Part shown: positions 39,216-60,746 of the stretch, piece by piece
Numbering within the stretch: position 1 is the first letter of the stretch
Layout of the letters: every line of letters starts with the position of its first letter
Origin: Thioploca sp.
Lineage (GTDB): Bacteria > Pseudomonadota > Gammaproteobacteria > Beggiatoales > Beggiatoaceae
Reading direction: 5' to 3'
NCBI GenBank assembly: GCA_012032555.1
Contig: JAAUSR010000002.1
Span: 62,001-126,000 of the forward strand
DNA: 64,000 nucleotides
Notes under the pieces: generated by a model
Databases searched by the model: none
Seen by the model: only the letters and a program-made list of their open reading frames with translations
What the model was told of the DNA's origin: nothing
Translations under genes and position numbers: made by a program

Positions 39216-39902
39216 TTAACGCAACTTCTCCAGCACCTCCTTCGTAAAGGGATTATTACCCGCTTGTAAGGTATCAACCCAACCTTGAACTAATTGATAA
39301 TTTTCTTCTTCATCCATTTTAAAAAACAACAGATTAGCAGCCTGTTGTAAATCGTCGATAGCACAAGCCATCTTACCGAGCAAAGCGTTAGCAATGCCCC
39401 TATTATGGAGATATTCCCAGTTATTCGGTTTAAGTGCGACGGCTTTCTCACAAGCCGCTATGACTTGAACCGCTTGTCCATAAACAATACCAGATTGGCA
39501 TAGCGTATTCCATTGATAAGCATCAATTTTTAGATCAGTTTTCAATTCTTGAGCAGCTTGAAATTTAGTTAGAGCAGTATCAATTTTGCCCTTCTCGGCC
39601 AACTCTACCCCTTTGTCTAGAAAAGCCAAAGCAGCTAATCCTTGAGCATACACTTCTAAGTTATTTAATTTAAAACGCGAATCGATAGCCAAGGCTTGTT
39701 TAAATTTTTCCACTGCAGCCGATATCTTACCGTCTTGAGCTAACACTTCGCCCTGATCTATTTTCGCTTGAGCAGCAAGTTGTTTAGCTTGTGCCTGGGG
39801 ATCAAATTTAAGACAAGCTGCCTGAGTTTGTGCTTGTTTAAATTGCTTAACTGCTTCGGTTAAATTACCTTGTTTAGCAAAATTTTCACCAGCCGTTATG
39901 AG
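39216..39902 (-). CDS. TPR-like C-terminal part of the second triple-TIR protein
   Basis: This frame is open upstream of the GTG at 39746 and joins the TIR gene at the T9 run (39925-39933). With eight Ts instead of nine the fusion reads RQAFFLSSTQADDLITAGENF, identical in style to the C-termini of related TIR/WD40 proteins. It contains several TPR-like helical hairpins (AVKQFKQAQ, AVEKFKQALAID, ALTKFQAAQ, WEYLHNRGIANALLGKMACAIDDLQQ). TPR tails mediate protein-protein contacts. A separate 176-residue protein starting at 39746 is possible but less likely. Confidence 0.7.
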   Translation of the reverse strand, partial: LITAGENFAKQGNLTEAVKQFKQAQTQAACLKFDPQAQAKQLAAQAKIDQGEVLAQDGKISAAVEKFKQALAIDSRFKLNNLEVYAQGLAALAFLDKGVELAEKGKIDTALTKFQAAQELKTDLKIDAYQWNTLCQSGIVYGQAVQVIAACEKAVALKPNNWEYLHNRGIANALLGKMACAIDDLQQAANLLFFKMDEEENYQLVQGWVDTLQAGNNPFTKEVLEKLR

Positions 39903-43525: not shown

Positions 43526-44636
43526 TCAACTCACTACAATGGTCCGGAGCGAAAACAAATCGCGTAGGGTAGCAAACGCATTTAGCCCCTGCTTGCGGAA
43601 AGTTGAAACGGCCCCCAGCAAACGCGCGTAGACACGAGCACCTAAGCCGGTGCGAAAGCATCCACTCACTTGTGGCTTAACCTTGGCCGGGCGTAAGTCC
43701 CGTTCAGCTTGGTTATTCGTGAACGGGACACCGGCCTCCAAGGCAAAAGCTAGCACCCCTGGTTCGGGTTTTCTCAGCCGGTTGAGCAAATTACGGCTGG
43801 GGGATTGTTTAGGCTTACCTCGCTTACCCGATTTGGGGGGGGGTTCTTCAAGCTCTGCTTGAGAAAGAATGATACCATAGTGTTTGTGTACTTCCTCCAC
43901 CGCTACCACCGGGCGTGGCATCTTATACCAGTCAAGCAGAAACTCGTGCATCTGTTCTGCCCACAGAGAATCCAAGCTGGCCAGTTCGCGCCGTAAGTGC
44001 GCACCGCACAGAACCTGCCGCGCCGGTTTAAAGCTAAAATACGGCGACCCGCAGTCATGTACTGCTATGCCTTGAAAGTCTTTCAATACTGATGCCTCAC
44101 TCTGGAGCGCCTCGGTGCCACGTTTTTTATGCACAAACCGGTCGGGGTGCTGTTCGGTAGAGGCCGTGTGTAGCCCGTGCCGTTGGCCCTCACCGCGCAC
44201 ACCTGTTTCATCAAAATGCCCTAGCTGCCAACAGGCATACCTTAGTTTGCTTTTCAAGCGTTTCTGCCAATTTGTAAGCTGGTTCCAGGGTATTCTCCAT
44301 CGTGGTCGTGTTGAGGTTGTAGCCGTAGAGGTCCTTAAATAGTTGGCTGAGCTGTTCCAACGGCATCTTGTGGTCCACCGAGCGTTTGGTGAGCAAGGCT
44401 CTTACGCTTGGGCCATATTGCATACTCGCGGTGACCCGGGCTGGGTATTCTTCACGGTGCAATAGGCCACCGCATTCAATTTGTCCTCTACTGTGTTCAG
44501 TCACTTCTCGTTTCGGCGTGACTAAGTCGAATACTTGCCGGCTTTGAATGATTTCCACTTCAGCTAGCCTAAATTGGCGGTCGCAGCAGTGGCATTGCGC
44601 CGGGTGATGGATTAGTTGGTGCTCAGGTTGCTCCAC
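43526..44636 (-). pseudogene. IS66-family transposase (TnpC), 5'-truncated and frameshifted
   Basis: Two overlapping frames on the minus strand together form an IS66 transposase lacking its N-terminus. The upstream part (44636-44211) starts inside the zinc-binding region (CHCCDRQFRLAEVEIIQSRQ) and runs to AETLEKQ. The downstream part (44257-43526) carries HFDETGVRGEGQRHGLHTAS, VHDCGSPYF, LCGAHLRRELASL and the catalytic C-terminal motif PFTNNQAERDLRPAKVKPQVSGCFRT. A single-base indel between about 44215 and 44250 separates them. The first 80-100 residues, TnpA/TnpB and the terminal repeats are not visible, so the element is a remnant. Its truncated 5' edge abuts the end of recC (33 bases), suggesting it replaced what lay downstream of recC. 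Confidence 0.85.
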
Positions 44637-44668: not shown

Positions 44669-47600
44669 TTAGATTGAAATCAAATTATTCAATAACGGCT
44701 CAAAAAATTTCTGTGCTAACACTTGAAAGCGTTGATCTTTTAAGGGAGCATTCTGATCAAATTGACCAAAATTTAATTGATAATATTCATTTTCTGCTTC
44801 CCCTAGTGCAAATTCGTTACCTCGCCAAGCTTGCCAAGCTCGATCGTAAGATTCTTCGGTTGATTTACCACGGTGAAGTGCTTTAACAAAGGCAAAAGCA
44901 GATTGTGGAAAAAACGGCAGCGGTTGTAATAGTCCCTGCCAATAGTAATCCGTTAATAAAGTGATTAAAATCGTTTGGCTTTCCAATGGGTCAAGCGGTT
45001 GATAACACCATTCCCCGTCTTCACCGATTAATAAACTTTGACGAGGCAGGTTGTTATCCGATAACGTATTGAGAATGAGATGGTAAATCCAGGTATTAAT
45101 ATAATCTTTGGCTTTGAATTTGGCATAACGATAATAAATTAAGTGATCCCGCCAAATGCCACCCAATCGACCGATCAGGCGCATTTCTCCGAGATTCAAA
45201 TTAATTCGTGGTGCTGCTTGCTTTTCTTGCTGGGTTACTTGCTGGACCCGTTCTACAAAAGGTTGTATTTGTTCAACTAATTGGTTATAGACATAATCGC
45301 CAATTTGGCCATGGGGTAATTGTCCACGGGCTTTGACAATGCGCTGGTAAGCTTTCAAGTCTTTACCGGCTAACTGCTTAGCCACTAAAACTTGACTCAA
45401 GGCATAACGATCCAGTCCACGGATTTCAAACGGTTCAGTTTCGTCCAGTAAGTCTTGGTCAGTGGGTAATTTTATTCCTAAACGTTCTTGAAATAAAAAT
45501 TCAATGGGGTTAGCAAAAAAGCGAGTTAAGCGTTTAATCTCTACAGTTTGCCATTCTGCCACTGGTTGAGGTTCAGGTAATGAGGTGAAAATAAATTGTG
45601 GAGGGAGTTGCCGCTCCTTAAATAAAGCCGTGCTCGCTACACAATATTCATTAGAATAGCTAAATAACCGTTGATCTTCACTGTTGAAATAACGGGGACT
45701 AAAAGCTTGTAAGGGATGGTGAAGTACCAAATAATCAATAATATCTTGCTGTGGATGAATAAAACCATGATGAATATAATCTAGTAGTTCGCTGACTAAT
45801 ACCGACGGCGGTATAACGGTATCATCATGAATACTGCGTCCCACATAACTGATATAAAAATAAGCACGTGCTGATAATAACGCTTCCAAAAATAAATAGC
45901 GATCGTGCTGCCGACGTGAGCGGTCGCCGCGTTGAGGATGTTGGAAAATTAGGTCAAAACTCAAAGGTTGACTTGGACGGGGATAGGTTTGATCATTCAT
46001 TCCTAATAAAGCCACCACTTTGAATGGAATGCTACGCATGGGCAATAAAGTACAAAATAGGACTTGACCAGTGAGAAAATGAGTTGGAGACGGTTCTTTT
46101 TCTAAGTAATGTCGCAAATAAGCCAAAATGACTTCTCGACTTACTTCACTGTTAAAATGGGTAAGCTGGCTGTTTTCAACGAGAGTCGTTAATAATCGAC
46201 GAATTTGTTGGGCTTCAAACTCACTATTTTCATCAGTGCTCAATAACTGTTCAAATAACTCGGTTAATAAACTCGACCATTGTGGTAAAGGACGAGATTG
46301 TTCTAAAGATTTAATGTAATCAAATAGTTGTTCAATAAAAGCGAGCAATTTACCGAGGATCAATCGATCACTGCCTTCGATTTGATCAAAAGGTAAAATA
46401 TCTTGAAATAGCAATTCTTCTTGATTTATGGCTAACTGACTGTCAGTTGATTGAAACAATGGTGATGGTGGTAAAGCATAGCCAAGTAACAGTCGATTCA
46501 AACCGGCTCGCCAAGTATTTTCTTCCAAAGCCGGTAAATGCATTCGCTCTCGATCCGCCGCATCTATTCCCCAACGGATACCGGTTTGCTTTATCCACCA
46601 ACGAATCAAATCTAAGTCGGGTTCTAAAAAACCGAAACGTCTTTGTACAGCCTCTATTTCTAGAATAGTCAACACTTCATTTACCGTTAGGCGGCTTTGA
46701 CTTAATTCCAAAATAGCCATAAAGGCATCAATTAAAGTACTTTGACTACGTAAACTTCGATCGGCAATACTAAAGGGAATTTTTTTATGTTCTGCTGGTG
46801 TCGTAGCGAATACCGCTTCAATAAGTGGTGCATAAGTTTCAATTTCCGGCATCATCACCACGATATCTTTTGGTAATAAGCTGGGATCAGTTTCAAATAG
46901 AGCCAGTAGCTGATCATGTAAAACTTCGACTTCCCGCAGCGGACTATGACAAACGTGAATTTGGATAGATTTATCGGCTATCTGAATCGGTGCCGCTTTC
47001 ACTTCGCCACGTTCTCGTAAGTACAAAATATCTGCTTGAATGGTCGCTAATAAAGTGGTTGGCGTCGGTGCAGTAAAGTATTCGTGACTCGCATGCGGAT
47101 ATTCTTGTAGCAGGTCAATAAAGTCACGTCCCATTTTTCCCCAAGAAGCTAATAAAGGGTTACCTCTAGTAAAATAGAGCTCATCTGGGGTAGTTGACCT
47201 TTCCTGAATACGTGCGGTTTTATGTGCTATTTCGATATCGGAAACAATATCACCCCAATATTCTTGACAAGGATTTAATAAAAAGATATGGATGTCCCGG
47301 AATTGACCTAAATGAGCAAATACTTCTAAGTGAAAGGGGGGTAAAGCCGGTATACCAAATACTGATAAACGTTGCCAAGGGGCGGGTTGTGAATTCAGTT
47401 TGGGTAAATACTGAAAAAACTCAGCACGCAATTTTGCGCGATGATTATTGCCATACTGTTTTACTAAACTTTGCCATAAGATGGCTTGCCATTGAGCAGC
47501 AGAATTATTTTCTAACTCGGGTGGTTGTTGATTATTTTCCCAATGTGCTAACCAATGTGGGCGATAAACCATATATTGATTAAAGAGCGTCGCCAAACGT

Positions 47601-47983
47601 ACTGCTAATTGCAACCGTTGGATTTGTTGGATATCGTTTTGTAAATAATGCTGTAATTCTGCAAACGATTCTTGCTGCAAACAATCCGATAACTTTTCCA
47701 TTATGCTCCACACGAGTACTTCCGGTTCAAATGGAGAAGTATCTGGGAGATAGCCTAAAGCTTCTTTAAGCAGCCGCCAAACAATCGTATCTGCAAACGG
47801 GAAAGCTGCATTTGCCCATATTCCAAGTTCTTCAGCCAATTTCATCGATACCCAGCGTTGCATACCTTGACTTTGAACGACAATAATTTCTTTGGCCAAG
47901 GGGTTAGTTAACGGCACTTTAACGACGCTTGCTAATGCTTGGAGTAAATTTTCTAGACGATTACTGGTGTGAATATGAAGCAT
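44669..47983 (-). CDS. recC: Exodeoxyribonuclease V gamma subunit
   Basis: RecC is the Chi-recognising scaffold of the RecBCD helicase-nuclease, which repairs double-strand breaks and degrades foreign DNA. At 1104 residues the length is typical. The N-terminus (LHIHTSNRLENLLQALASVV, EIIVVQSQGMQRWVSMKLAE, GIWANAAFPFADTIVWRLL) and later blocks (VFGIPALPPFHLEVFAHLGQ, DIVVMMPEIETYAPLIEAVF, IPFSIADRSLRSQSTLIDAF, VVALLGMNDQTYPRPSQPLS) are characteristic. recB and recD, usually downstream, are absent: a truncated IS66 element begins 33 bases after the stop. It starts 9 bases after the methyltransferase gene at 47993, so the two may be co-transcribed. Confidence 0.93.
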   Translation of the reverse strand: MLHIHTSNRLENLLQALASVVKVPLTNPLAKEIIVVQSQGMQRWVSMKLAEELGIWANAAFPFADTIVWRLLKEALGYLPDTSPFEPEVLVWSIMEKLSDCLQQESFAELQHYLQNDIQQIQRLQLAVRLATLFNQYMVYRPHWLAHWENNQQPPELENNSAAQWQAILWQSLVKQYGNNHRAKLRAEFFQYLPKLNSQPAPWQRLSVFGIPALPPFHLEVFAHLGQFRDIHIFLLNPCQEYWGDIVSDIEIAHKTARIQERSTTPDELYFTRGNPLLASWGKMGRDFIDLLQEYPHASHEYFTAPTPTTLLATIQADILYLRERGEVKAAPIQIADKSIQIHVCHSPLREVEVLHDQLLALFETDPSLLPKDIVVMMPEIETYAPLIEAVFATTPAEHKKIPFSIADRSLRSQSTLIDAFMAILELSQSRLTVNEVLTILEIEAVQRRFGFLEPDLDLIRWWIKQTGIRWGIDAADRERMHLPALEENTWRAGLNRLLLGYALPPSPLFQSTDSQLAINQEELLFQDILPFDQIEGSDRLILGKLLAFIEQLFDYIKSLEQSRPLPQWSSLLTELFEQLLSTDENSEFEAQQIRRLLTTLVENSQLTHFNSEVSREVILAYLRHYLEKEPSPTHFLTGQVLFCTLLPMRSIPFKVVALLGMNDQTYPRPSQPLSFDLIFQHPQRGDRSRRQHDRYLFLEALLSARAYFYISYVGRSIHDDTVIPPSVLVSELLDYIHHGFIHPQQDIIDYLVLHHPLQAFSPRYFNSEDQRLFSYSNEYCVASTALFKERQLPPQFIFTSLPEPQPVAEWQTVEIKRLTRFFANPIEFLFQERLGIKLPTDQDLLDETEPFEIRGLDRYALSQVLVAKQLAGKDLKAYQRIVKARGQLPHGQIGDYVYNQLVEQIQPFVERVQQVTQQEKQAAPRINLNLGEMRLIGRLGGIWRDHLIYYRYAKFKAKDYINTWIYHLILNTLSDNNLPRQSLLIGEDGEWCYQPLDPLESQTILITLLTDYYWQGLLQPLPFFPQSAFAFVKALHRGKSTEESYDRAWQAWRGNEFALGEAENEYYQLNFGQFDQNAPLKDQRFQVLAQKFFEPLLNNLISI

Positions 47984-47992
47984 TTAAAAAAT

Positions 47993-48772
47993 TTAAGGTG
48001 ATATACCTAATCTCGCCATCATCTCATAATCTAAAGTGGTCGTTGGTGTTTGCGGTGGAACATAAAGTGTTGAGATTTCACTGACTTTTGCTTTAGGTAA
48101 TTGGGAAAGCGAAAGCGATTTAATCAACGGATGACAAACTGGGTAATAAGTCGCTGCTTCATAAATAACCACTTCATGTTCAAGACCATAATATTGCCCC
48201 AACACTTCTGCTAAGATAGTTAAACCCGGTGAAGGTGCGCCTTCTTTAAGAAAGCCTAAATTACCCACCATAGCCAACTGCCATAAAATTAGCATACTGG
48301 TTGGATCAAATTGACGACGTCGAATTAAAAAATCAGTCGCTTCAAAGCTTTGACAACCATTTCGTCCGGGATCAACCCCTAAATCCGCAAATAAACAATC
48401 CTCAGCAGAAATGCCCGGTAACATCTGAGCATGAAATCCTTCCTGACGGGCTTGTCTAATCGCCTCATGAGCTGGATCAGAGAACACCCCCGGATGACCA
48501 TAAAAAACCACACAAATATTTCCACCTTGACGAACAGCCGCTAAAATGTATTCAACCATTTCCTGATAGGTTTGGCGTCGCCGCTGATTATTGGTATTAT
48601 AAGGCAATGGTTCTACGATCTTATTAAGAGTTTGTAACCATTTAGCTGTAACGGGATCAGCTACTGCAAACAAAACTTTGTCAGCTTCTTTAATCCAAGC
48701 TTGAGCGGCTAAAGTTAAATGACCTACTAATTGAATACCTGTTCCTACAATCGTCAATGTTCCAGGTTCCAA
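47993..48772 (-). CDS. Split-borosin-type peptide alpha-N-methyltransferase (SonM-like tetrapyrrole-methylase fold)
   Basis: The 259-residue protein has the tetrapyrrole methylase fold: TLTIVGTGIQLVGHLTLAA at the N-terminus and FYGHPGVFSDPAHEAIRQAR in the SAM-binding half. Unlike CobA/CysG-type enzymes it closely follows borosin methyltransferases such as fungal OphMA and bacterial SonM. Shared blocks are IKEADKV, an Arg and a Tyr in RRRQTYQEMVEYIL at the position of the OphMA catalytic R/Y pair, FYGHPGVF, MLPGISAEDCLFADLGVDPG, FEATDFLI, EHEVVIYEA and STLYVPP. These enzymes methylate backbone amides of a RiPP precursor using S-adenosylmethionine. No precursor with a borosin-binding domain is visible next to the gene. 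TTG 48772 has a good AAGGAG upstream. Comparison is from memory of the family; a different peptide or small-molecule substrate remains possible. Confidence 0.78.
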   Translation of the reverse strand: MEPGTLTIVGTGIQLVGHLTLAAQAWIKEADKVLFAVADPVTAKWLQTLNKIVEPLPYNTNNQRRRQTYQEMVEYILAAVRQGGNICVVFYGHPGVFSDPAHEAIRQARQEGFHAQMLPGISAEDCLFADLGVDPGRNGCQSFEATDFLIRRRQFDPTSMLILWQLAMVGNLGFLKEGAPSPGLTILAEVLGQYYGLEHEVVIYEAATYYPVCHPLIKSLSLSQLPKAKVSEISTLYVPPQTPTTTLDYEMMARLGISP

Positions 48773-49131
48773 ATCAAATCTCCTTTTTTATAAGGTTATC
48801 GTTATTGATTTATTCAGGTTATGCATGGTTGCCGTCAACTTAAGTTATTATTCTCACACTTTATTTCAATAAAATTGAGAATTAGCTTTATTATCAACCA
48901 ATTAAATCCACACTGTCTTCATTTTTCAAATGGGGGAATCCTTAAAATGATTGATTTTTAATGTTATATACACCTTGTAGCTACGGATAAAATGGTTGCT
49001 TAACTCAATGGTAGTGGAGACTAAGGTATATTTACCAGCAGCCCATTTTCCGAAATCCTTCCTCCGTTATTAAAGTGTAACCGGAATTATTTAATTTCAG
49101 CATTAAAGATTCGGTGAGTAATTAATTAAAA
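48773..49131. other. Intergenic region between ffh and the methyltransferase gene
   Basis: No good frame is found. A 23-codon minus-strand frame (49103-49032) is too short and featureless to be called. A degenerate copy of the dispersed repeat motif occurs at 48999-49016 (CTTAACTCAATGGTAGTG). The Shine-Dalgarno of the methyltransferase gene (AAGGAG) lies at its low-coordinate edge. Confidence 0.5.
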
Positions 49132-49646
49132 TTAAAATCGCATTCCCGGTGGCAATTTACTTTTCATTGTACGCATAATACTGGTTATTCCGCCTTTTTT
49201 AGTCATTTGTTTAACCATTTTTTGCATTTGAGTAAATTGTTTTAGTAAGCGATTTACTTCTTGAATCTGGGTTCCTGAACCTTGGGCAATACGGCGCTTA
49301 CGTGAACCTTTAATAATACCGGGAAAGCGTCGTTCCTGAGGTGTCATAGAATTAATAATCGCTTCTAAACGACGCATTTCTTTATCATTAACTTGTGCTT
49401 TAGCTTTATCTGGCACTTGATCCATCCCGGGCATTTTTTCCATTAAACTAGCGACTCCCCCCATATTGCGCATTTGGATTAATTGGGTCCTAAAATCCTC
49501 TAGATCAAAGCCTTGCCCTTTTTTTAATTTGCCTACTAATTTGTCAGCTTGTTCTCTATCAACAGCACGTTCCGCTTCTTCAATTAAACTGAGAACATCA
49601 CCTTGACCAATAATTCTTGAAGCAATTCGATCGGGATAAAATGGTT
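49132..49646 (-). CDS. ffh: Signal recognition particle GTPase Ffh, C-terminal (M domain) part
   Basis: Continuation of ffh after a single-base shift. In the corrected frame the sequence reads GEKTSALEPFYPDRIASRII, then IGQGDVLSLIEEAE, a Met-rich M domain (QLIQMRNMGGVASLMEKMPGM, RRIAQGSGTQIQEVNRLLKQ, FTQMQKMVKQM) and a short end KLPPGMRF. The M domain binds hydrophobic signal sequences and 4.5S RNA. Read alone, this part has no proper start; a Met at 49473 is internal to the M domain. The whole gene spans 49132-50492, about 454 residues, the normal Ffh length. Confidence 0.9.
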
Positions 49647-50492
49647 CTAATGCGGACGTTTTTTCCCAATCCCAATAAATTTTATCGGTTTACCGGTAAT
49701 ATGACGAACCGATAAAGCGGCACCACCACGGGCATCACCGTCAGTTTTAGTGAGAATCACGCCGGTTAAAGACAAAGCGTCATTAAAGGCTTTAGCGGTA
49801 TTGGCTGCATCTTGCCCGGTCATGCTATCGACGATAAATAATGTTTCAGTGGGTTGCGTTACCGCATGTAATGCCTTAATTTCAGCCATCATGTAATCAT
49901 CGACATGCAGACGACCCGCTGTGTCAATGAGTAATACTTCAGCAAACTCCCGACGTGCTTGAGAAATAGCGTTTGTAGCAATATCAACGGGTTTTTGGTT
50001 AGTTTCACTCGGAAAAAATTGTGCTCCCACTTCAGCCGCTAAAGTTTCCAATTGTTTAATAGCAGCAGGACGATAAATATCACAACTGACTACCATGACC
50101 GTTTTCTTCTTGCGTTCAATTAACCAGCGAGCCAATTTCGCTACCGTTGTGGTTTTACCTGAACCTTGTAATCCAGCCATCAAGATAACCACCGGTGCTG
50201 GTGCATTTAAATTGATCTCATCACATTGTTCACCCATTAATTGGGTTAATTCATCTCGTACAACTTTAATTAACGCCTGACCTGGTGTTAGACTATTGAG
50301 GACTTCTTGTCCAACAGCACGTTGTCGCACTTGTTCTACAAATTCTCTGACTACCGGTAAAGCGACATCGGCCTCTAGTAAAGCCATACGGACTTCACGT
50401 AGCGCTTCTTTAATATTGTTTTCGGTTAGTCGACCTTGACCACGTAGTGTTTTCAAGGTTTTGCTTAACCGTTCGGTAAGACTTTCAAACAT
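49647..50492 (-). CDS. ffh: Signal recognition particle GTPase Ffh, NG-domain part
   Basis: From ATG 50492 the protein begins MFESLTERLSKTLKTLRGQG, the classical Ffh N domain. GTPase motifs follow: GLQGSGKTTTVAKLARWL (G1), the DIYRPAA insertion, LLIDTAGR (G3) and VILTKTDGDARGG (G4). After KFIGIG the frame is lost because GGGAAAAAA (49659-49667 on the plus strand as TTTTTTCCC) lacks one G; GGGGAAAAAA would restore GIGEKTSALEP. Ffh with 4.5S RNA targets nascent membrane proteins to FtsY and the translocon. Since ffh is essential in nearly all bacteria, this break is probably a sequencing or assembly error. Confidence 0.95.
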   Translation of the reverse strand: MFESLTERLSKTLKTLRGQGRLTENNIKEALREVRMALLEADVALPVVREFVEQVRQRAVGQEVLNSLTPGQALIKVVRDELTQLMGEQCDEINLNAPAPVVILMAGLQGSGKTTTVAKLARWLIERKKKTVMVVSCDIYRPAAIKQLETLAAEVGAQFFPSETNQKPVDIATNAISQARREFAEVLLIDTAGRLHVDDYMMAEIKALHAVTQPTETLFIVDSMTGQDAANTAKAFNDALSLTGVILTKTDGDARGGAALSVRHITGKPIKFIGIGKKRPH

Positions 50493-53462: not shown

Positions 53463-56400
53463 CTATTTTACCTGAGCATCATCCAAACACCTTTTCAACC
53501 GTTCAGCAAGTATTCGAACCTGAGGTTCTTGAAGTATTTCTCGGTGTCCACCGGGAATGACATGACGAACTAGGCCACCGGTTGTAAATTCAGACCAGCG
53601 CTTTGCCCAAGGTCCCTCGCCTTGGTTTTCTAAAGCTTCAAACTCACTGCTCCGAAACAAAATAACTTTGCCCGAATAAACTGGAATTCTATAATTCATA
53701 TTAGCCATCTGGTGAGCGGCCATAACGTTTTCAAGGCGACGGCGGTGTTGCGGATTCAGTTTCATTTTGAACCAACGGTAACGGCGGTTCATAAAATCCT
53801 TTAAGGCAGAGTATAGTTGATACCACTGACCACGTCGATAATGATAAATAGTACGATAGATATAATAACTGAGAGAATTTAAATTTTCAAATTCAGCCCA
53901 CTGAGGTAATTTGGAAACAATAGGTGCACCGGGATCCAATAAAGCTAGCAGAGCTATAGAGTCACCTTGTACTTGAAGTTGTTGTGCCATCTCCCAAGCG
54001 ATATGACTTCCAAAACACAAACCAGCCAAATAATAAGGTCCATCTGGTTGAAAAGTTCGTACTTCCTTAAGATAATAATCGGCCATTTCCTCGACCCGAT
54101 TGTGAGGAGCCTGTTTGCCATCTAAGCCCAGTGGCTGTAACCCATAAACGGGCTGATCTGAACCTAAATGACGCACTAAATCAATAAATCCAGTGACCGT
54201 GTTCCCAGCCGGGGGTATACAAAAAAGAGGGGGTTTAGAACCGTGAGGTTGAAGAGGCACCAGTGACAAATAAGAAGTTGAGTCTCTGGTTTGATAAAGA
54301 ATATGAGCTAATTGTTCAACCGTTGGGGCTTGGAACAGGGTAGCTAAAGGCAGATTTTGGCCTAGTTTTTTCTCAATCTTGCTTAACAAGATCACGGCTA
54401 ATAAGGAATGCCCACCCAAATCAAAAAAGTTGTCATAAATACCAACTCGTTTAACTCCCAACACTTCCGCCCAAATTTCGGCTAACCGTTTTTCCGTTTG
54501 GGTACGAGGAGCAACAAACGGTTTTGCTGAGACTTCTAAGTTTACCGATAATTGAGAAAGTGCACGGCGGTCGATCTTACCATTAGGTGTGAGTGGTAAG
54601 TGTTCCAAAGAGACAAAAGCCACTGGTATCATATAATCGGGTAGTTTCTCTTGAAGAAAAGCACGTAATTCACTTGGTTCAATGAGTTGTCCCGGCTGAA
54701 GGACTAAATAGGCCACTAAACGTTTCTCACCTGATTCTGATTCCTGGACAATAACTACATCTTCTTGGATGGTTGGATAACTTGCTAACACCACTTCAAT
54801 TTCACCAAGCTCAATACGGAAACCTCGAATCTTAACTTGATTATCGATACGACCTAAAAATTCAATATTACCATCAGGTAAATAGCGTACTAAGTCACCG
54901 GTTTTATAGAGGCGTGAATGGGAACTGAAGGGGTTGCTAATGAATTTTTCGGTGGTTAATTGGGGGCGATTAAGATAACCTTGAGCTAATCCAGCACCAC
55001 CAATATAGAGTTCTCCTGGCACACCAATAGGTACCGGTTGGTGATTTTGATCTAAAACATAAACTTGGGTGTTAGCAATCGGGCGACCGATAGGTATATT
55101 AGTTACCCCTGCTGGGACCTCGGTTACTAAATACCAAGTAGTAAAAGTAGTATTTTCGGTTGGCCCATAAACATGCAATAACCGTTGTGGTGGACCGTGG
55201 TTAAGTATTTTAGCAACCCATTTAGGTTCAACGGCTTCGCCGCCAAAGAGTACCTGTCGCATACCCTGAAAAATCGTCGGTTGCTCCCGCGCTAACTGAT
55301 TGAATAGAGCCGTTGTTAAAAAGATGACACTGATCTTGTGTTCACGCAGATAAGCAGCCAAGTTGGGGGGTGAGAGCAGGATATCTTTTGTTATCCCAAT
55401 AAGTTGTGCACCCTGGAGGAGTGCTCCCCAAATTTCAAAGGTTGCGGCATCAAAAGAAATATTTGACGCTTGGGCAACTCGGTCGGAAGTTTCTAAATGG
55501 ATGTATTGGCTGTTAAAGATAAGACGGTTGATGGCTTGATGAGGAATGGCTACTCCCTTCGGTTGGCCGGTTGACCCAGACGTATATATCACATAAGCCA
55601 AGTTGGTTGATTTGACCTGGTGGCTCGGGTTTGTTATAGGGTATGGTAACCGGGCTGCCGTTTCAACATCCAAATAAACTATTGTTACCCTGGTTTCAGG
55701 TAGTTGTTTGGCTAAGTGGGATTGAGTTAACAATATAGGAACGGGGGTATCTTCTAACATAAAGGCCAAACGTGCCTTGGGATAAGTGGGATCCATCGAT
55801 AAGTAGGCCCCGCCAGCTTTGAGAATTCCTAATAAACCGATCACCATAGACACCGAACGCTCTATGCAGATAGCTATCAAGGCCGCCGGTTTGACTCCCA
55901 AAGCGATGAGATGATGTGCGAGTTGATTCGCTTGGCGATTTAATTCACTATAGGTCAGTTGTTGATTTTCAAAAACCACGGCCACGGCATCCGGGGTTTT
56001 TTCAGCTTGAGCCTCAAATAACTGATGAATACACCGATCTTGAGGGTAATCGGTGGCGGTTTCATTCCAGGCTAACAGTTGTTGTTGTTCAGCAACGGTA
56101 AGTAATGGTAATTTATGCAGAGGTGTTTGTGGATTGTCCACAATACCAGTTAATAAAGTTTGCCAGTGACCTAATAAACGTTCTATCGTCGTACATTCAA
56201 ATAAATCAGTATTGTATTCTAACCAACCGAGCAGCCCTGATGAAGTGGTTTCATTGAGTGACAGAGTCAAGTCAAATTTTGCGATCACACTTTGCCATTC
56301 TAAAGTAGTTAAATGAAGCCCAGTGAATTCTAACTCTGTTCGAGGCGCATTTTGTAACACGAATAGGACTTGAAACAACGGTGAATGACTTAAATTTCGA

Positions 56401-59400
56401 GTTGGATTGAGTTTCTCCACTAACTTTTCGAAAGGAATATCTTGATGAGAGTAAGCTTCTAAGGCAACTCGCCGAGCTTGTTGCAAAACGGCATCAAAAG
56501 TGGGATTACCACTCAAATCCAGACGCAAGACCAAGGTATTAACAAAGAAACCGATTAGCGGTTCGGTTTGGCGATGGGTCCGATTGGCGATGGGAGAGCC
56601 AATGACAATGTCGGTTTGACCACTGTAGCGAGATAATAAGGTAGCCCAAGCTGACCACAAAGTCATAAACAAGGTGGTGCCAGCGTGTTGGCTAAGGTGT
56701 TTCAGTTGTGTGGTCAATTCGGGTGACAGGGAAATGGGAATATGGGCACCTTGGAAACGTTGTACTGGTGGACGTGGATGGTCAGTTGGTAATTCGAGTA
56801 AGACTGGAGCGTCAGCCAGTTGTTGTTTCCAATAAATTAATTGTTGTTCCAGGATATCTCCCGTGAGCCATTGCCGTTGCCAGTGAGCAAAGTCTACATA
56901 CTGAACCGGCAATGGGGACAAGGGAGATGGTTGACCTTGTGAAAACGCTTGATAAAGTGTTGATAATTCACGAAGCAAAACGCCTATAGACCAACCATCA
57001 CTGATAATGTGGTGCATCGTTAATATTAGAATGTGCGATTCAATTCCCAAATGTAGCAATATTGCTCGGAATAAAGGCCCTTGTTCTAAGTCAAAGGGAC
57101 GTTGGGCTTCCTCATTAACAAGGCGTTGAACTTCATGTTCTCGTTCTTCAACACTTAAAATGTGTAAATCAAACAGTGGCAACGATCCATGCTCAACTGG
57201 AGAAATGACTAACACGGGTTGTCCTTCAACCGTTTTAAAGGTTGTTCGTAGGGTCTCATGGCGTTGTACTACAGTTTGTAAACTCTTTTCAAGAGCCGTT
57301 TGGTTTAAGAATCCTTCTAAGCGCCGTGCCGAAGAGATATTATAAGTTGCACTAGCTCCCTCTAGTTGGTTTAAGAACCACAAACGCTGTTGGGCAAAAG
57401 AGAGCGGGAGCATTTTTGACCGATCCACCGAGGTGATTGACGGTAAAAGGGTCTGATAAGATGTCGCATCTAGTTTATGGCTCAAACCAGCGATAGTTGG
57501 TGATTCAAATAACTGACGTAAGGGCAATTCAATTTTAAAAGTTTCACGAATTCTCGACATCATTTGGGTAGCCAAGAGAGAATGTCCACCCAATTCAAAA
57601 AAATTATCGTGAACACCGACTCGCTCAACTTCCAGTACTTGGCTCCAAATTCCCGCTAATAATTCTTCTTCCTCAGTTCGAGGGGCGACAAAAGTTTTTT
57701 TGGGTAACTGATAGCTCGCTATGGCAAATTGAGATAAGGCTCGGCGGTCGACCTTATTATTGGGTGTGAGTGGCAAATGATCCAAAGAAACAAAGGCTAG
57801 AGGTATCATGTAATCGGGGAGTTTTTCTTGAAGAAAAGCACGTAATTCACTTGGCTCAATGAGTTGTCCCAGCTGAGGGACCAAATAGGCCACTAAACGT
57901 TTCTCACCCGCTTCCGATTCTTGGACAACGACGACATCTTCTTGTATGGTCGGATGACTTGCCAAGACCGCTTCGATTTCACCAAGCTCAATACGGAAAC
58001 CTCGAATCTTGACTTGATTATCGATACGACCTAAAAATTCAATATTACCATCGGGTAAATAACGCGCTAAGTCACCGGTTTTATAGAGACGTGAATGGGG
58101 ATCATTGCTGAAGGGATTCTTAATAAATTTTTCAGCAGTTAAGTCAGGACTATTCCAGTAACCGCGAGCTAAACCAGCACCACCGATGTGAAGTTCTCCT
58201 GGGACACCGATAGGAACTCTTTGAAGATTTGAATCTAAAAGATAAACTTGGGTATTAGCAATGGGATAGCCTATAGCAATGGTGTTGACAGAAGCACTCA
58301 TTGTTATGGCTGATACTTGAGTCATCGTTGAATAAATTGTAGTTTCGGTGGGACCATACAAATTCCACAAGGTTTGGCCTTTTTCCAACAATTGTGTCGC
58401 CAATGTAGAGGGGCAGGCTTCACCACCACAGAGTATTTTCAATTGAGGAGAATTATCCCAACTCGCAGCTAGCAGTAACTGCCATGTTGCTGGTGTTGCC
58501 TGTAGAATGGTAACGTTCCCCAATTTTAATTGGTCTAATAACTGAAAACCATCAGCAGCTACTTCACGACTAACTAATACGATCTTTGCGCCGGTAATCA
58601 GCGGCAAGTAGAGTTCTAGTGCGGCAATATCAAAAGAGAGTGTGGCGATAGCAAGTAGTACATCATTTGAAGTCAATTCTAGCTGTTGATGCATAGACAC
58701 TAATAAATTGAGTAATGATGAATGACAAATTTGTACACCTTTCGGTTTCCCAGTTGAACCCGAGGTGTAAATTACATAAGCCAAATTAGTAGGGTTCACT
58801 TCACCTAAAGGATTCGCTACGCTTAATAATGATCGTGCCGGGATCTCCATATCTAAACAAATGATCTTTGCTGGCGTTTCCGGCAATCCATCGATTAACT
58901 GGGATTGAGTCAATAGTACCGATATTTGAGAATTTTCCAACATAAAGGCTAAACGCGCCTTAGGATAAGTGGGATCCAGCGGCAAGTAGGCACCTCCCGC
59001 TTTGAGAATTCCGAGCAAACCGCTCATCATAATAAGTGAACGTTCTACACAAATACCCACCAAAACTTCCGGTTTGACTCCCAAAGCAGTAAGATGATGT
59101 GCGAGTTGATTCGCTTGGCGATTTAATTCACTATAGGTCAGTTGTTGATTTTCAAAAACCACGGCCACGGCATCCGGGGTTTTTTCAGCTTGATCCTCAA
59201 ATAACTGATGAATACACCGATCTTGAGGGTAATCGGTGGCGGTTTCATTCCAGGCTAACAGTTGTTGTTGTTCAGCGACGGTAAGTAATGGTAATTCATG
59301 CAGGGGCATTTGGGGATTGTCCACAATGCCAATTAATAAGGTGAGTAAATGGCCTGACAAACGTTCTATCGTCGCACGTTCAAATAAATCGGTATTGTAT

Positions 59401-60746
59401 TCTAACCGACCTCTTAGCCCAGAAGATGTTTCAGTCAGTTCCAAGGTGAGGTCAAATTTAGCGATAACACTTTCAAATTCTAAAGTAGTAAAATTCAGCC
59501 CGGCTAATTCCCAATCGGGTTTTGGTACGTTCTGTAACACCATCATCACCTGAAACAGGGGCGAATGACTCAGGTTCCGGGCCGGCTTGAGTTCCTCTAC
59601 TAACTTTTCAAAGGGAATATCTTGATAAGAATAGGCTTCTAAAGCGATTCGCCGAGCTTGTTGCAAAACGGCATCAAAAGTGGGATTACCACTCAAATCC
59701 AGACGCAAGACCAAGGTATTGACAAAGAAACCGATTAGCGGTTCGGTTTGGCGATGGGTCCGATTGGCGATGGGAGAGCCAATGACAATGTCGGTTTGAC
59801 CACTGTAGCGAGATAATAAGGTAGCAAAAGCTGACCACAAAGTCATAAACAAGGTGGTGCCAGCGTGTTGGCTAAGGTGTTTCAGTTGTGTGGTCAATTC
59901 TAGTGACAGGGAAATAGGAATATGGGCACCTTGGAAACGTTGTACTGGTGGACGTGGATGGTCAGTTGGTAATTCGAGTAAAACTGGAGCGTCAGCCAGT
60001 TGTTGTTTCCAATAAATCAATTGTTGTTCCAGGATATCTCCCGTGAGCCATTGCCGTTGCCAGTGAGCAAAATCGGCATATTGAATGGGTAATGGGGATA
60101 AAGGAGACGGTTTGCCGTTTAAAAAGGCTTCGTAAAGAATGGAAAGTTCTTGAAATAAAATTCCCGTTGACCAACCATCGGAGGCAATGTGATGTATCAC
60201 TAACAGTAAGATATGCTCGGTGGGTTCTAACTGTAATAAAGTGGTTCGCAGCATCAAATCTGAGGATAAATTGAAGAGACGTTGACTGGCCTCATTAATC
60301 AAATGTTGAACTTGAGCTGCTTGCTGGCTTCGAGTTTTTCCCTCTTCCACAGCAATCACTGGCAATTCCACCGTTTGGCTTTCGGTAATAAGTGATTTTG
60401 GCTTGCCATCCACAGAGACAAAAGTAGTACGTAGGACCTCATGACGGACCACAATGGCATCCAAGGCTTGTTGCAAGACATCCACATTGAGCGTCCCACT
60501 CAATCGTATGGCTTTGGTGACATTATAGAAAGGGCTATCTGGTTCGAGTTGTTGCAAAAACCATAATCTCTGCTGGGCAAAAGAGAGTGGAACGGTTTCC
60601 TGATTGACTCGGCGTGGAATCGCTGGTTGCCCCGTTGCTGCTGACTCTTGTTTTTTGATGAGCCTTTGCTTAAGGAGAGCACGTTTGACGGGTGAAAGTG
60701 TCGGCTGCTTATTGCTCAGCGTTTCTTGAGGAGATAGCTTGTTCAT
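53463..60746 (-). CDS. Two-module non-ribosomal peptide synthetase, C-A-T-C-A-T-TE
   Basis: The 2427-residue enzyme starts at ATG 60746 and overlaps the upstream gene by ATGA. Domains: C1 (about 50-480, HHIASDG), A1 (about 510-1010), T1 (LGGHSLL near 1054), C2 (about 1100-1540, HHIISDG), A2 (about 1565-2065), T2 (LGGHSLL near 2114) and TE (about 2180-2425). Reading the ten specificity positions by eye gives DILQLGLIYK for A1, very close to a known glycine code, and DAFFLGVTFK for A2, an aliphatic (Ile/Val) type. The TE nucleophile elbow is AGLCFGS, with Cys2244 where Ser is usual. A first C domain without a loading A domain implies that a starter acyl group comes from the ligase-carrier protein at 61646-63520. 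The likely product is a short acylated or capped dipeptide; no tailoring or export gene is in the window. Confidence 0.92.
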   Translation of the reverse strand: MNKLSPQETLSNKQPTLSPVKRALLKQRLIKKQESAATGQPAIPRRVNQETVPLSFAQQRLWFLQQLEPDSPFYNVTKAIRLSGTLNVDVLQQALDAIVVRHEVLRTTFVSVDGKPKSLITESQTVELPVIAVEEGKTRSQQAAQVQHLINEASQRLFNLSSDLMLRTTLLQLEPTEHILLLVIHHIASDGWSTGILFQELSILYEAFLNGKPSPLSPLPIQYADFAHWQRQWLTGDILEQQLIYWKQQLADAPVLLELPTDHPRPPVQRFQGAHIPISLSLELTTQLKHLSQHAGTTLFMTLWSAFATLLSRYSGQTDIVIGSPIANRTHRQTEPLIGFFVNTLVLRLDLSGNPTFDAVLQQARRIALEAYSYQDIPFEKLVEELKPARNLSHSPLFQVMMVLQNVPKPDWELAGLNFTTLEFESVIAKFDLTLELTETSSGLRGRLEYNTDLFERATIERLSGHLLTLLIGIVDNPQMPLHELPLLTVAEQQQLLAWNETATDYPQDRCIHQLFEDQAEKTPDAVAVVFENQQLTYSELNRQANQLAHHLTALGVKPEVLVGICVERSLIMMSGLLGILKAGGAYLPLDPTYPKARLAFMLENSQISVLLTQSQLIDGLPETPAKIICLDMEIPARSLLSVANPLGEVNPTNLAYVIYTSGSTGKPKGVQICHSSLLNLLVSMHQQLELTSNDVLLAIATLSFDIAALELYLPLITGAKIVLVSREVAADGFQLLDQLKLGNVTILQATPATWQLLLAASWDNSPQLKILCGGEACPSTLATQLLEKGQTLWNLYGPTETTIYSTMTQVSAITMSASVNTIAIGYPIANTQVYLLDSNLQRVPIGVPGELHIGGAGLARGYWNSPDLTAEKFIKNPFSNDPHSRLYKTGDLARYLPDGNIEFLGRIDNQVKIRGFRIELGEIEAVLASHPTIQEDVVVVQESEAGEKRLVAYLVPQLGQLIEPSELRAFLQEKLPDYMIPLAFVSLDHLPLTPNNKVDRRALSQFAIASYQLPKKTFVAPRTEEEELLAGIWSQVLEVERVGVHDNFFELGGHSLLATQMMSRIRETFKIELPLRQLFESPTIAGLSHKLDATSYQTLLPSITSVDRSKMLPLSFAQQRLWFLNQLEGASATYNISSARRLEGFLNQTALEKSLQTVVQRHETLRTTFKTVEGQPVLVISPVEHGSLPLFDLHILSVEEREHEVQRLVNEEAQRPFDLEQGPLFRAILLHLGIESHILILTMHHIISDGWSIGVLLRELSTLYQAFSQGQPSPLSPLPVQYVDFAHWQRQWLTGDILEQQLIYWKQQLADAPVLLELPTDHPRPPVQRFQGAHIPISLSPELTTQLKHLSQHAGTTLFMTLWSAWATLLSRYSGQTDIVIGSPIANRTHRQTEPLIGFFVNTLVLRLDLSGNPTFDAVLQQARRVALEAYSHQDIPFEKLVEKLNPTRNLSHSPLFQVLFVLQNAPRTELEFTGLHLTTLEWQSVIAKFDLTLSLNETTSSGLLGWLEYNTDLFECTTIERLLGHWQTLLTGIVDNPQTPLHKLPLLTVAEQQQLLAWNETATDYPQDRCIHQLFEAQAEKTPDAVAVVFENQQLTYSELNRQANQLAHHLIALGVKPAALIAICIERSVSMVIGLLGILKAGGAYLSMDPTYPKARLAFMLEDTPVPILLTQSHLAKQLPETRVTIVYLDVETAARLPYPITNPSHQVKSTNLAYVIYTSGSTGQPKGVAIPHQAINRLIFNSQYIHLETSDRVAQASNISFDAATFEIWGALLQGAQLIGITKDILLSPPNLAAYLREHKISVIFLTTALFNQLAREQPTIFQGMRQVLFGGEAVEPKWVAKILNHGPPQRLLHVYGPTENTTFTTWYLVTEVPAGVTNIPIGRPIANTQVYVLDQNHQPVPIGVPGELYIGGAGLAQGYLNRPQLTTEKFISNPFSSHSRLYKTGDLVRYLPDGNIEFLGRIDNQVKIRGFRIELGEIEVVLASYPTIQEDVVIVQESESGEKRLVAYLVLQPGQLIEPSELRAFLQEKLPDYMIPVAFVSLEHLPLTPNGKIDRRALSQLSVNLEVSAKPFVAPRTQTEKRLAEIWAEVLGVKRVGIYDNFFDLGGHSLLAVILLSKIEKKLGQNLPLATLFQAPTVEQLAHILYQTRDSTSYLSLVPLQPHGSKPPLFCIPPAGNTVTGFIDLVRHLGSDQPVYGLQPLGLDGKQAPHNRVEEMADYYLKEVRTFQPDGPYYLAGLCFGSHIAWEMAQQLQVQGDSIALLALLDPGAPIVSKLPQWAEFENLNSLSYYIYRTIYHYRRGQWYQLYSALKDFMNRRYRWFKMKLNPQHRRRLENVMAAHQMANMNYRIPVYSGKVILFRSSEFEALENQGEGPWAKRWSEFTTGGLVRHVIPGGHREILQEPQVRILAERLKRCLDDAQVK
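56470..56891 (-). repeat. Near-identical C-domain segments within the NRPS gene (partner 59650-60071)
   Basis: The segment 56470-56891 (C2 domain) and 59650-60071 (C1 domain), 3180 bases apart, differ at only a handful of positions over about 420 bases, whereas flanking C-domain sequence is clearly diverged. A second pair, about 55910-56120 and 59093-59303 at the C-to-A junctions, is similarly alike. This points to recent intragenic gene conversion or module duplication. Confidence 0.85.

Follow-up and report, generated by a model that had tools for sequence, protein, structure and literature searches.

The borosin-type backbone N-methyltransferase encoded between ffh and recC in a Thioploca sp. 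genome raises the question of what it methylates. Genome mining for borosin peptides seeks precursors adjoining enzymes, and the sequence-only reading in which this enzyme was noticed found none beside it. Two explanations were offered there, namely that the substrate is encoded elsewhere or that the enzyme is a stand-alone methyltransferase with a different target. The window analyzed is the whole stretch of 64,000 nucleotides that contains the gene, and coordinates without further designation refer to it.

Enzyme gene and assignment of its product

The 259-codon open reading frame at 47993..48772 on the reverse strand is a genuine gene. It begins with TTG, and a Shine-Dalgarno sequence, AAGGAG, was read 7 nt upstream of this start (48780..48785, reverse strand) in a stretch that is identical in the sister genome, where start and ribosome-binding site are both kept. 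The sister genome, a single closed contig of 4.81 Mb, belongs to the same genus as the window genome. Its copy of the enzyme is 93.4% identical with a dN/dS of 0.057, and in this comparison the gene is under strong purifying selection.

The enzyme was placed in the Pfam family TP_methylase. When it was compared against the PDB using phmmer, SonM was matched over the full length with 46% identity (216 bits, E 4e-63), and OphMA and its relatives scored 189-205 bits, with 205 bits for OphMA itself. An AlphaFold2 model of the enzyme (pLDDT 91.6) was submitted to Foldseek, which returned SonM at the top (E 2.5e-33) and OphMA with a TM of 0.94; borosin enzymes accounted for all of the 50 matches listed. 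Mutation of SonM Y58, R67, Y71, or Y93 lowers activity or SAM binding (PMC8429565), and these residues correspond to Y58, R65, Y69, and Y91 of the window enzyme, in which all four are kept. The codon for Tyr58 (48599..48601, reverse strand) was located from the phmmer alignment, in which the nearby loop is shorter than that of SonM. Arg65 (48578..48580, reverse strand) is the same in the SonM alignment and nearly invariant among 40 relatives, and Tyr69 (48566..48568, reverse strand) and Tyr91 on the cofactor side (48500..48502, reverse strand) are invariant across those 40.

The TP_methylase family is common to borosin enzymes and tetrapyrrole methylases, and models for YabN, CobI, and CbiE gave weak matches, as might be expected if a CbiE/CobI/CobA-type tetrapyrrole methylase had been mistaken for a borosin enzyme. 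These matches fell far below their cut-offs, however (44.6 bits against 525 for the best NCBIfam match, 27 against 163 for cobI), and the best tetrapyrrole enzyme in the PDB, a uroporphyrinogen methylase, scored 21 bits against 216 and 205 for SonM and OphMA. As the scores were low and the active-site residues specific to borosins were present, tetrapyrrole methylase identity was rejected, and its probability is negligible. The earlier assignment to the OphMA/SonM style over the whole length and the claim of catalytic Arg and Tyr positions were thus borne out; of the two findings named as telling against them, closer similarity to CbiE/CobI and absence of those residues, neither applies. On sequence and modeled structure the product is a SonM/OphMA-type borosin alpha-N-methyltransferase, for which peptide methylation itself is predicted.

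Genomic neighborhood of the enzyme gene

The genes on either side are host context outside the borosin system. In the list of open reading frames, recC occupies 44669..47983 on the reverse strand and starts approximately 9 nt past the enzyme stop, and the two genes are probably co-transcribed. Upstream of the enzyme lies ffh (49132..50492, reverse strand), recovered by tblastn as two overlapping pieces in different frames. Because ffh is usually essential, this frameshift probably arose in assembly. The approximately 320 bp that separate ffh from the enzyme gene (48788-49110) lack a counterpart at the corresponding position of the sister genome, whose gap is far shorter. Broken transposase-like reading frames in overlapping frames adjoin recC at 43526-44636 on the reverse strand, and an NRPS-like reading frame of 2427 aa, which nothing ties to the borosin enzyme, lies upstream at 53463-60746 on the same strand. 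An Rfam scan of the window gave no match.

All reading frames of at least 25 aa on both strands of the window were compared with a profile of related precursors, and no precursor was found at E<=10. The ffh-enzyme-recC order is the same in the sister genome, again without a precursor there, so that the missing precursor noted on the ffh and recC flanks is a feature of both genomes. At the recC locus of 19 other relatives, the available flanks, a few of which are short, showed no ffh and no enzyme gene beside recC; the arrangement therefore appears special to this genus.

Small proteins beside cyanobacterial relatives of the enzyme

A scan of approximately 85,000 species genomes, from which records of the window genome itself or of one very close to it may be missing, identified the closest enzyme group in filamentous cyanobacteria at 65-74% identity, among them Microcoleus, Oscillatoria, Argonema, Moorena, Symploca, and other genera. 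In 15 of 17 cyanobacterial loci, one to three TPR genes come after the enzyme gene and lead to a gene for a small protein of 81-104 aa; the two exceptions are a 3.35-kb contig (L008) and a locus with a truncated enzyme (L020). The small protein is in turn followed by a giant Ser/Thr-histidine kinase gene in 12 of the 15.

A profile (A2) was constructed from 14 of the cyanobacterial neighbors of the enzyme gene, and its alignment shows a shared helical N-terminal domain and, after a hydrophobic stretch, a conserved DP-x-PDPDP tail. Compared against the PDB, A2 matched SonA (E 2.4e-7 to 6e-6) in an ungapped alignment over residues 1-66, and the methylated SonA core therefore faces the hydrophobic stretch. 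An AlphaFold2 model of one homologue (locus L016) has five helices (residues 3-13, 15-23, 25-32, 36-43, and 47-52) and a sixth short one. In a Foldseek search with this model, SonA chains ranked first, followed by OphMA clasp regions and LigAB, with E-values of at least 0.16 that are weak, as expected for only approximately 50 residues. A five-helix borosin-binding domain (BBD) was thus recognized through both the SonA profile match and the homologue model, which identifies the cyanobacterial small proteins as split-borosin precursors.

A candidate precursor gene elsewhere in the genome

The search proposed earlier, for small proteins with a borosin-binding domain across the genome, was performed using A2 and returned a single match in the window's own genome, on contig 94 at 39327-39563 of the forward strand (E 1.6e-29). 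The candidate precursor encoded there has 79 aa, with the sequence MANLFHFLTDLAVNPTKQMDFIRYPHTVITASGLSPMEQTIIESRNRRQISAIFADKRVPMANICGDPGPDPLPDPDPS, and gives the first of the two earlier explanations, a substrate encoded elsewhere, a specific form. The sister genome likewise contains one match (4580550-4580786, E 4.6e-31), 0.88 Mb from the enzyme at 3697311. In the window genome, enzyme and precursor are separately encoded on contigs 89 and 94; an assembly artefact was rejected as the source of this separation, the two genes also being apart in the single-contig sister genome. A broader profile (A4), built from 18 diverse precursors with the two of this genus among its rows, found no further precursor in either genome, and the presence of several precursors was rejected as well. 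The Pfam family LigA (PF07746) had no match in the window genome and fell short of its cut-off in the precursors, which are too divergent from that family. The C-terminal half of a fused borosin-like protein from Candidatus Venteria ishoeyi also found no match in the window's own genome.

The surroundings of the precursor gene are shared by both genomes and comprise TPR genes, a SnoaL-like gene, a further TPR gene, and a giant kinase gene. In the window genome these encode TPR proteins of 246 and 294 aa, a SnoaL-like protein of 123 aa, a TPR protein of 289 aa, and a kinase of 1792 aa (locus L100, 1236-6614, reverse strand; L101 in the sister genome), and adk is the next gene after the set. The 1792-aa protein contains protein kinase (Pkinase), AAA_16, GAF, and histidine kinase (HATPase_c) domains. 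The 294-aa TPR protein is 57% identical to its cyanobacterial counterpart. Matches to the kinase family are numerous, 12 in the window genome and as many as 31 in a single cyanobacterial genome. Of five cyanobacterial genomes compared with the kinase beside the precursor, four had their best match in the gene that immediately follows the borosin precursor; the corresponding gene of the fifth was highest in identity, but over a shorter span. The partner genes and the kinase matching therefore indicate that the genome contains the remainder of the cyanobacterial cluster, with the enzyme gene alone elsewhere.

Between the two species the precursor is 83.5% identical with a dN/dS of 0.185, which points to purifying selection. 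This bears on two other accounts of the locus. The enzyme stands apart from the precursor, adjoining recC and ffh in both genomes, and could have become a stand-alone methyltransferase whose substrate changed after separation of the cluster, leaving the precursor on contig 94 unmodified. Against this, a precursor of the matching cyanobacterial family is kept under selection in the same two genomes, its tail DPGPDPLPDPDP is intact, and the Tyr and Arg residues facing the substrate are conserved in the enzyme. The second of the earlier explanations, a different target, is accordingly disfavored and considered very unlikely. Decay of an acquired system that no longer functions would agree with the broken-up cluster and with the reading of open reading frames near the enzyme and precursor loci, in which no dedicated transporter or protease was recognized. 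It is, however, at odds with the dN/dS values of both genes, the absence of stops, and the conserved ribosome-binding site, and is rated as highly improbable.

Putative core of the precursor

The precursor consists of a helical N-terminal domain, then a hydrophobic stretch and a DPxPDPLPDPDP tail. If the alignment is ungapped, SonA L63 and I65 stand opposite N63 and C65 of the precursor, the register being uncertain. This uncertainty, and the presence of a proline and small residues in the presumed core, count against the proposed reading. In Sorangium cellulosum So ce26 (locus L022, 4471-4827), a gene with a TPR gene on each side and two borosin-type enzymes nearby encodes tandem VAFHAAVTC-(T/A)-DPDPDPDPDP units with no recognizable binding domain, and its product is likely a multi-core precursor. 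Each unit is similar to the tail that occurs once in the precursor of the window genus, VPMANIC-G-DPGPDPLPDPDPS, and this analogy suggests that the hydrophobic stretch and the Asp-Pro tail together form the core unit.

Co-occurrence and origin

Among 339 cyanobacteria chosen as an even sample, an enzyme of the cyanobacterial type (at least 70% identity) was found in three, and the precursor was found in the same three, within approximately 3 kb; a fourth genome has a distant enzyme (42%) only. Among 58 relatives, the window's own genome included, the cyanobacterial-type enzyme occurs in two, both of the window genus, and the precursor in the same two, which count as one evolutionary event because they are of one genus. 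In one further relative, Candidatus Venteria ishoeyi, the enzyme is of another type and fused. Across all phyla, a BBD-type reading frame was detected in the flank or fused in 66 of 80 enzyme loci (none with shuffled reading frames), a count that describes rather than tests the association because the profile was built partly from those loci.

In the enzyme tree, the window gene and its sister are nested within the cyanobacteria in a 14-row clade (support 97/92). Oscillatoria and Argonema are nearest, with 80-90% support, which does not settle the exact branch; Sorangium lies outside the cyanobacterial clade as its nearest outgroup. The simplest reading is that the gene set was probably acquired from cyanobacteria by horizontal transfer. 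Gene exchange between cyanobacteria and Beggiatoaceae was argued earlier (PMC4679880), and the present locus adds one more case.

Proposed pathway

The system is very probably a type IV split borosin whose enzyme and substrate genes have become separated, the substrate being the 79-aa precursor on contig 94 and the enzyme acting in trans. One cluster, comprising the enzyme, the TPR proteins, the precursor, the SnoaL-like protein, and the giant kinase, apparently came from a filamentous cyanobacterium, and the enzyme gene would have moved between ffh and recC during or after the transfer. With its gene in that position, the enzyme has to reach its substrate in trans and would be expressed from a housekeeping neighborhood. 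The precursor leader (five helices, approximately residues 1-57) is predicted to dock on the enzyme in the way that SonM is bound by the borosin-binding domain of SonA; the enzyme would then act as a SAM-dependent peptide alpha-N-methyltransferase, methylating backbone amides in VPMANIC, ahead of the acidic Pro-Asp tail. From their linkage, the TPR proteins may be guessed to serve as adaptors or substrate handlers and the kinase as a sensor or regulator. As an extension that we regard as speculative and rather unlikely, the product might be a regulatory and not a toxic molecule, a backbone-methylated signal peptide. The giant Ser/Thr kinase-ATPase-GAF-histidine kinase, whose gene adjoins that of the precursor both in cyanobacteria and in this sulfur bacterium, would then sense how far the peptide has matured or how much of it is present, the TPR proteins would serve as adaptors, and the enzyme would be under housekeeping (ffh-recC) expression.

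A conserved enzyme-precursor pair with genes this far apart implies that the substrates of other "orphan" borosin enzymes may be encoded at distant places in their genomes. The pair also supplies a testable enzyme and substrate for large sulfur bacteria, and it draws attention to a gene cluster of cyanobacteria in which the TPR and kinase genes are unusual partners.

Comparison with known borosin systems

The literature searched, a set outside which the papers defining types V-X lie, contained no article that dealt with borosins in connection with either Thioploca or TPR proteins. Among the closest known systems is the type IV pair SonM-SonA of Shewanella oneidensis (PMC8429565). Its methyltransferase is likewise separate, with 46% identity and the same active site, and in its precursor a five-helix borosin-binding domain at the N-terminus likewise leads into a short hydrophobic stretch. 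In type IV borosins a precursor gene beside the enzyme gene is usual, not definitional (PMC8429565); in the window genus the precursor is non-adjacent, 0.88 Mb away in the closed genome, and differs further from SonA in its conserved DPxPDPLPDPDP tail and in a cluster with TPR, SnoaL-like, and giant kinase genes. OphMA and the fungal fused borosins (types I-III) share the homologous methyltransferase domain, but there enzyme, clasp, and core form one polypeptide, whereas in the window genus they are split over separate loci. Candidatus Venteria ishoeyi, of the same bacterial family, has a homologous enzyme domain (47%) in a fused protein of 519 aa on another branch of the tree (L004, 1465-3024; L050, 5962-7521), the C-terminal half of which gave a weak BBD-like match (E 0.1). 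With the methyltransferase-TPR-precursor-kinase clusters of Microcoleus, Moorena, Oscillatoria, Argonema, and other cyanobacteria (loci L005-L024), the window genus shares the enzyme clade (65-74%), the precursor family, the TPR and SnoaL-like partners, and an orthologous kinase; in the cyanobacteria all of these genes are adjacent, whereas in the window genus the enzyme gene stands alone, elsewhere in the genome.
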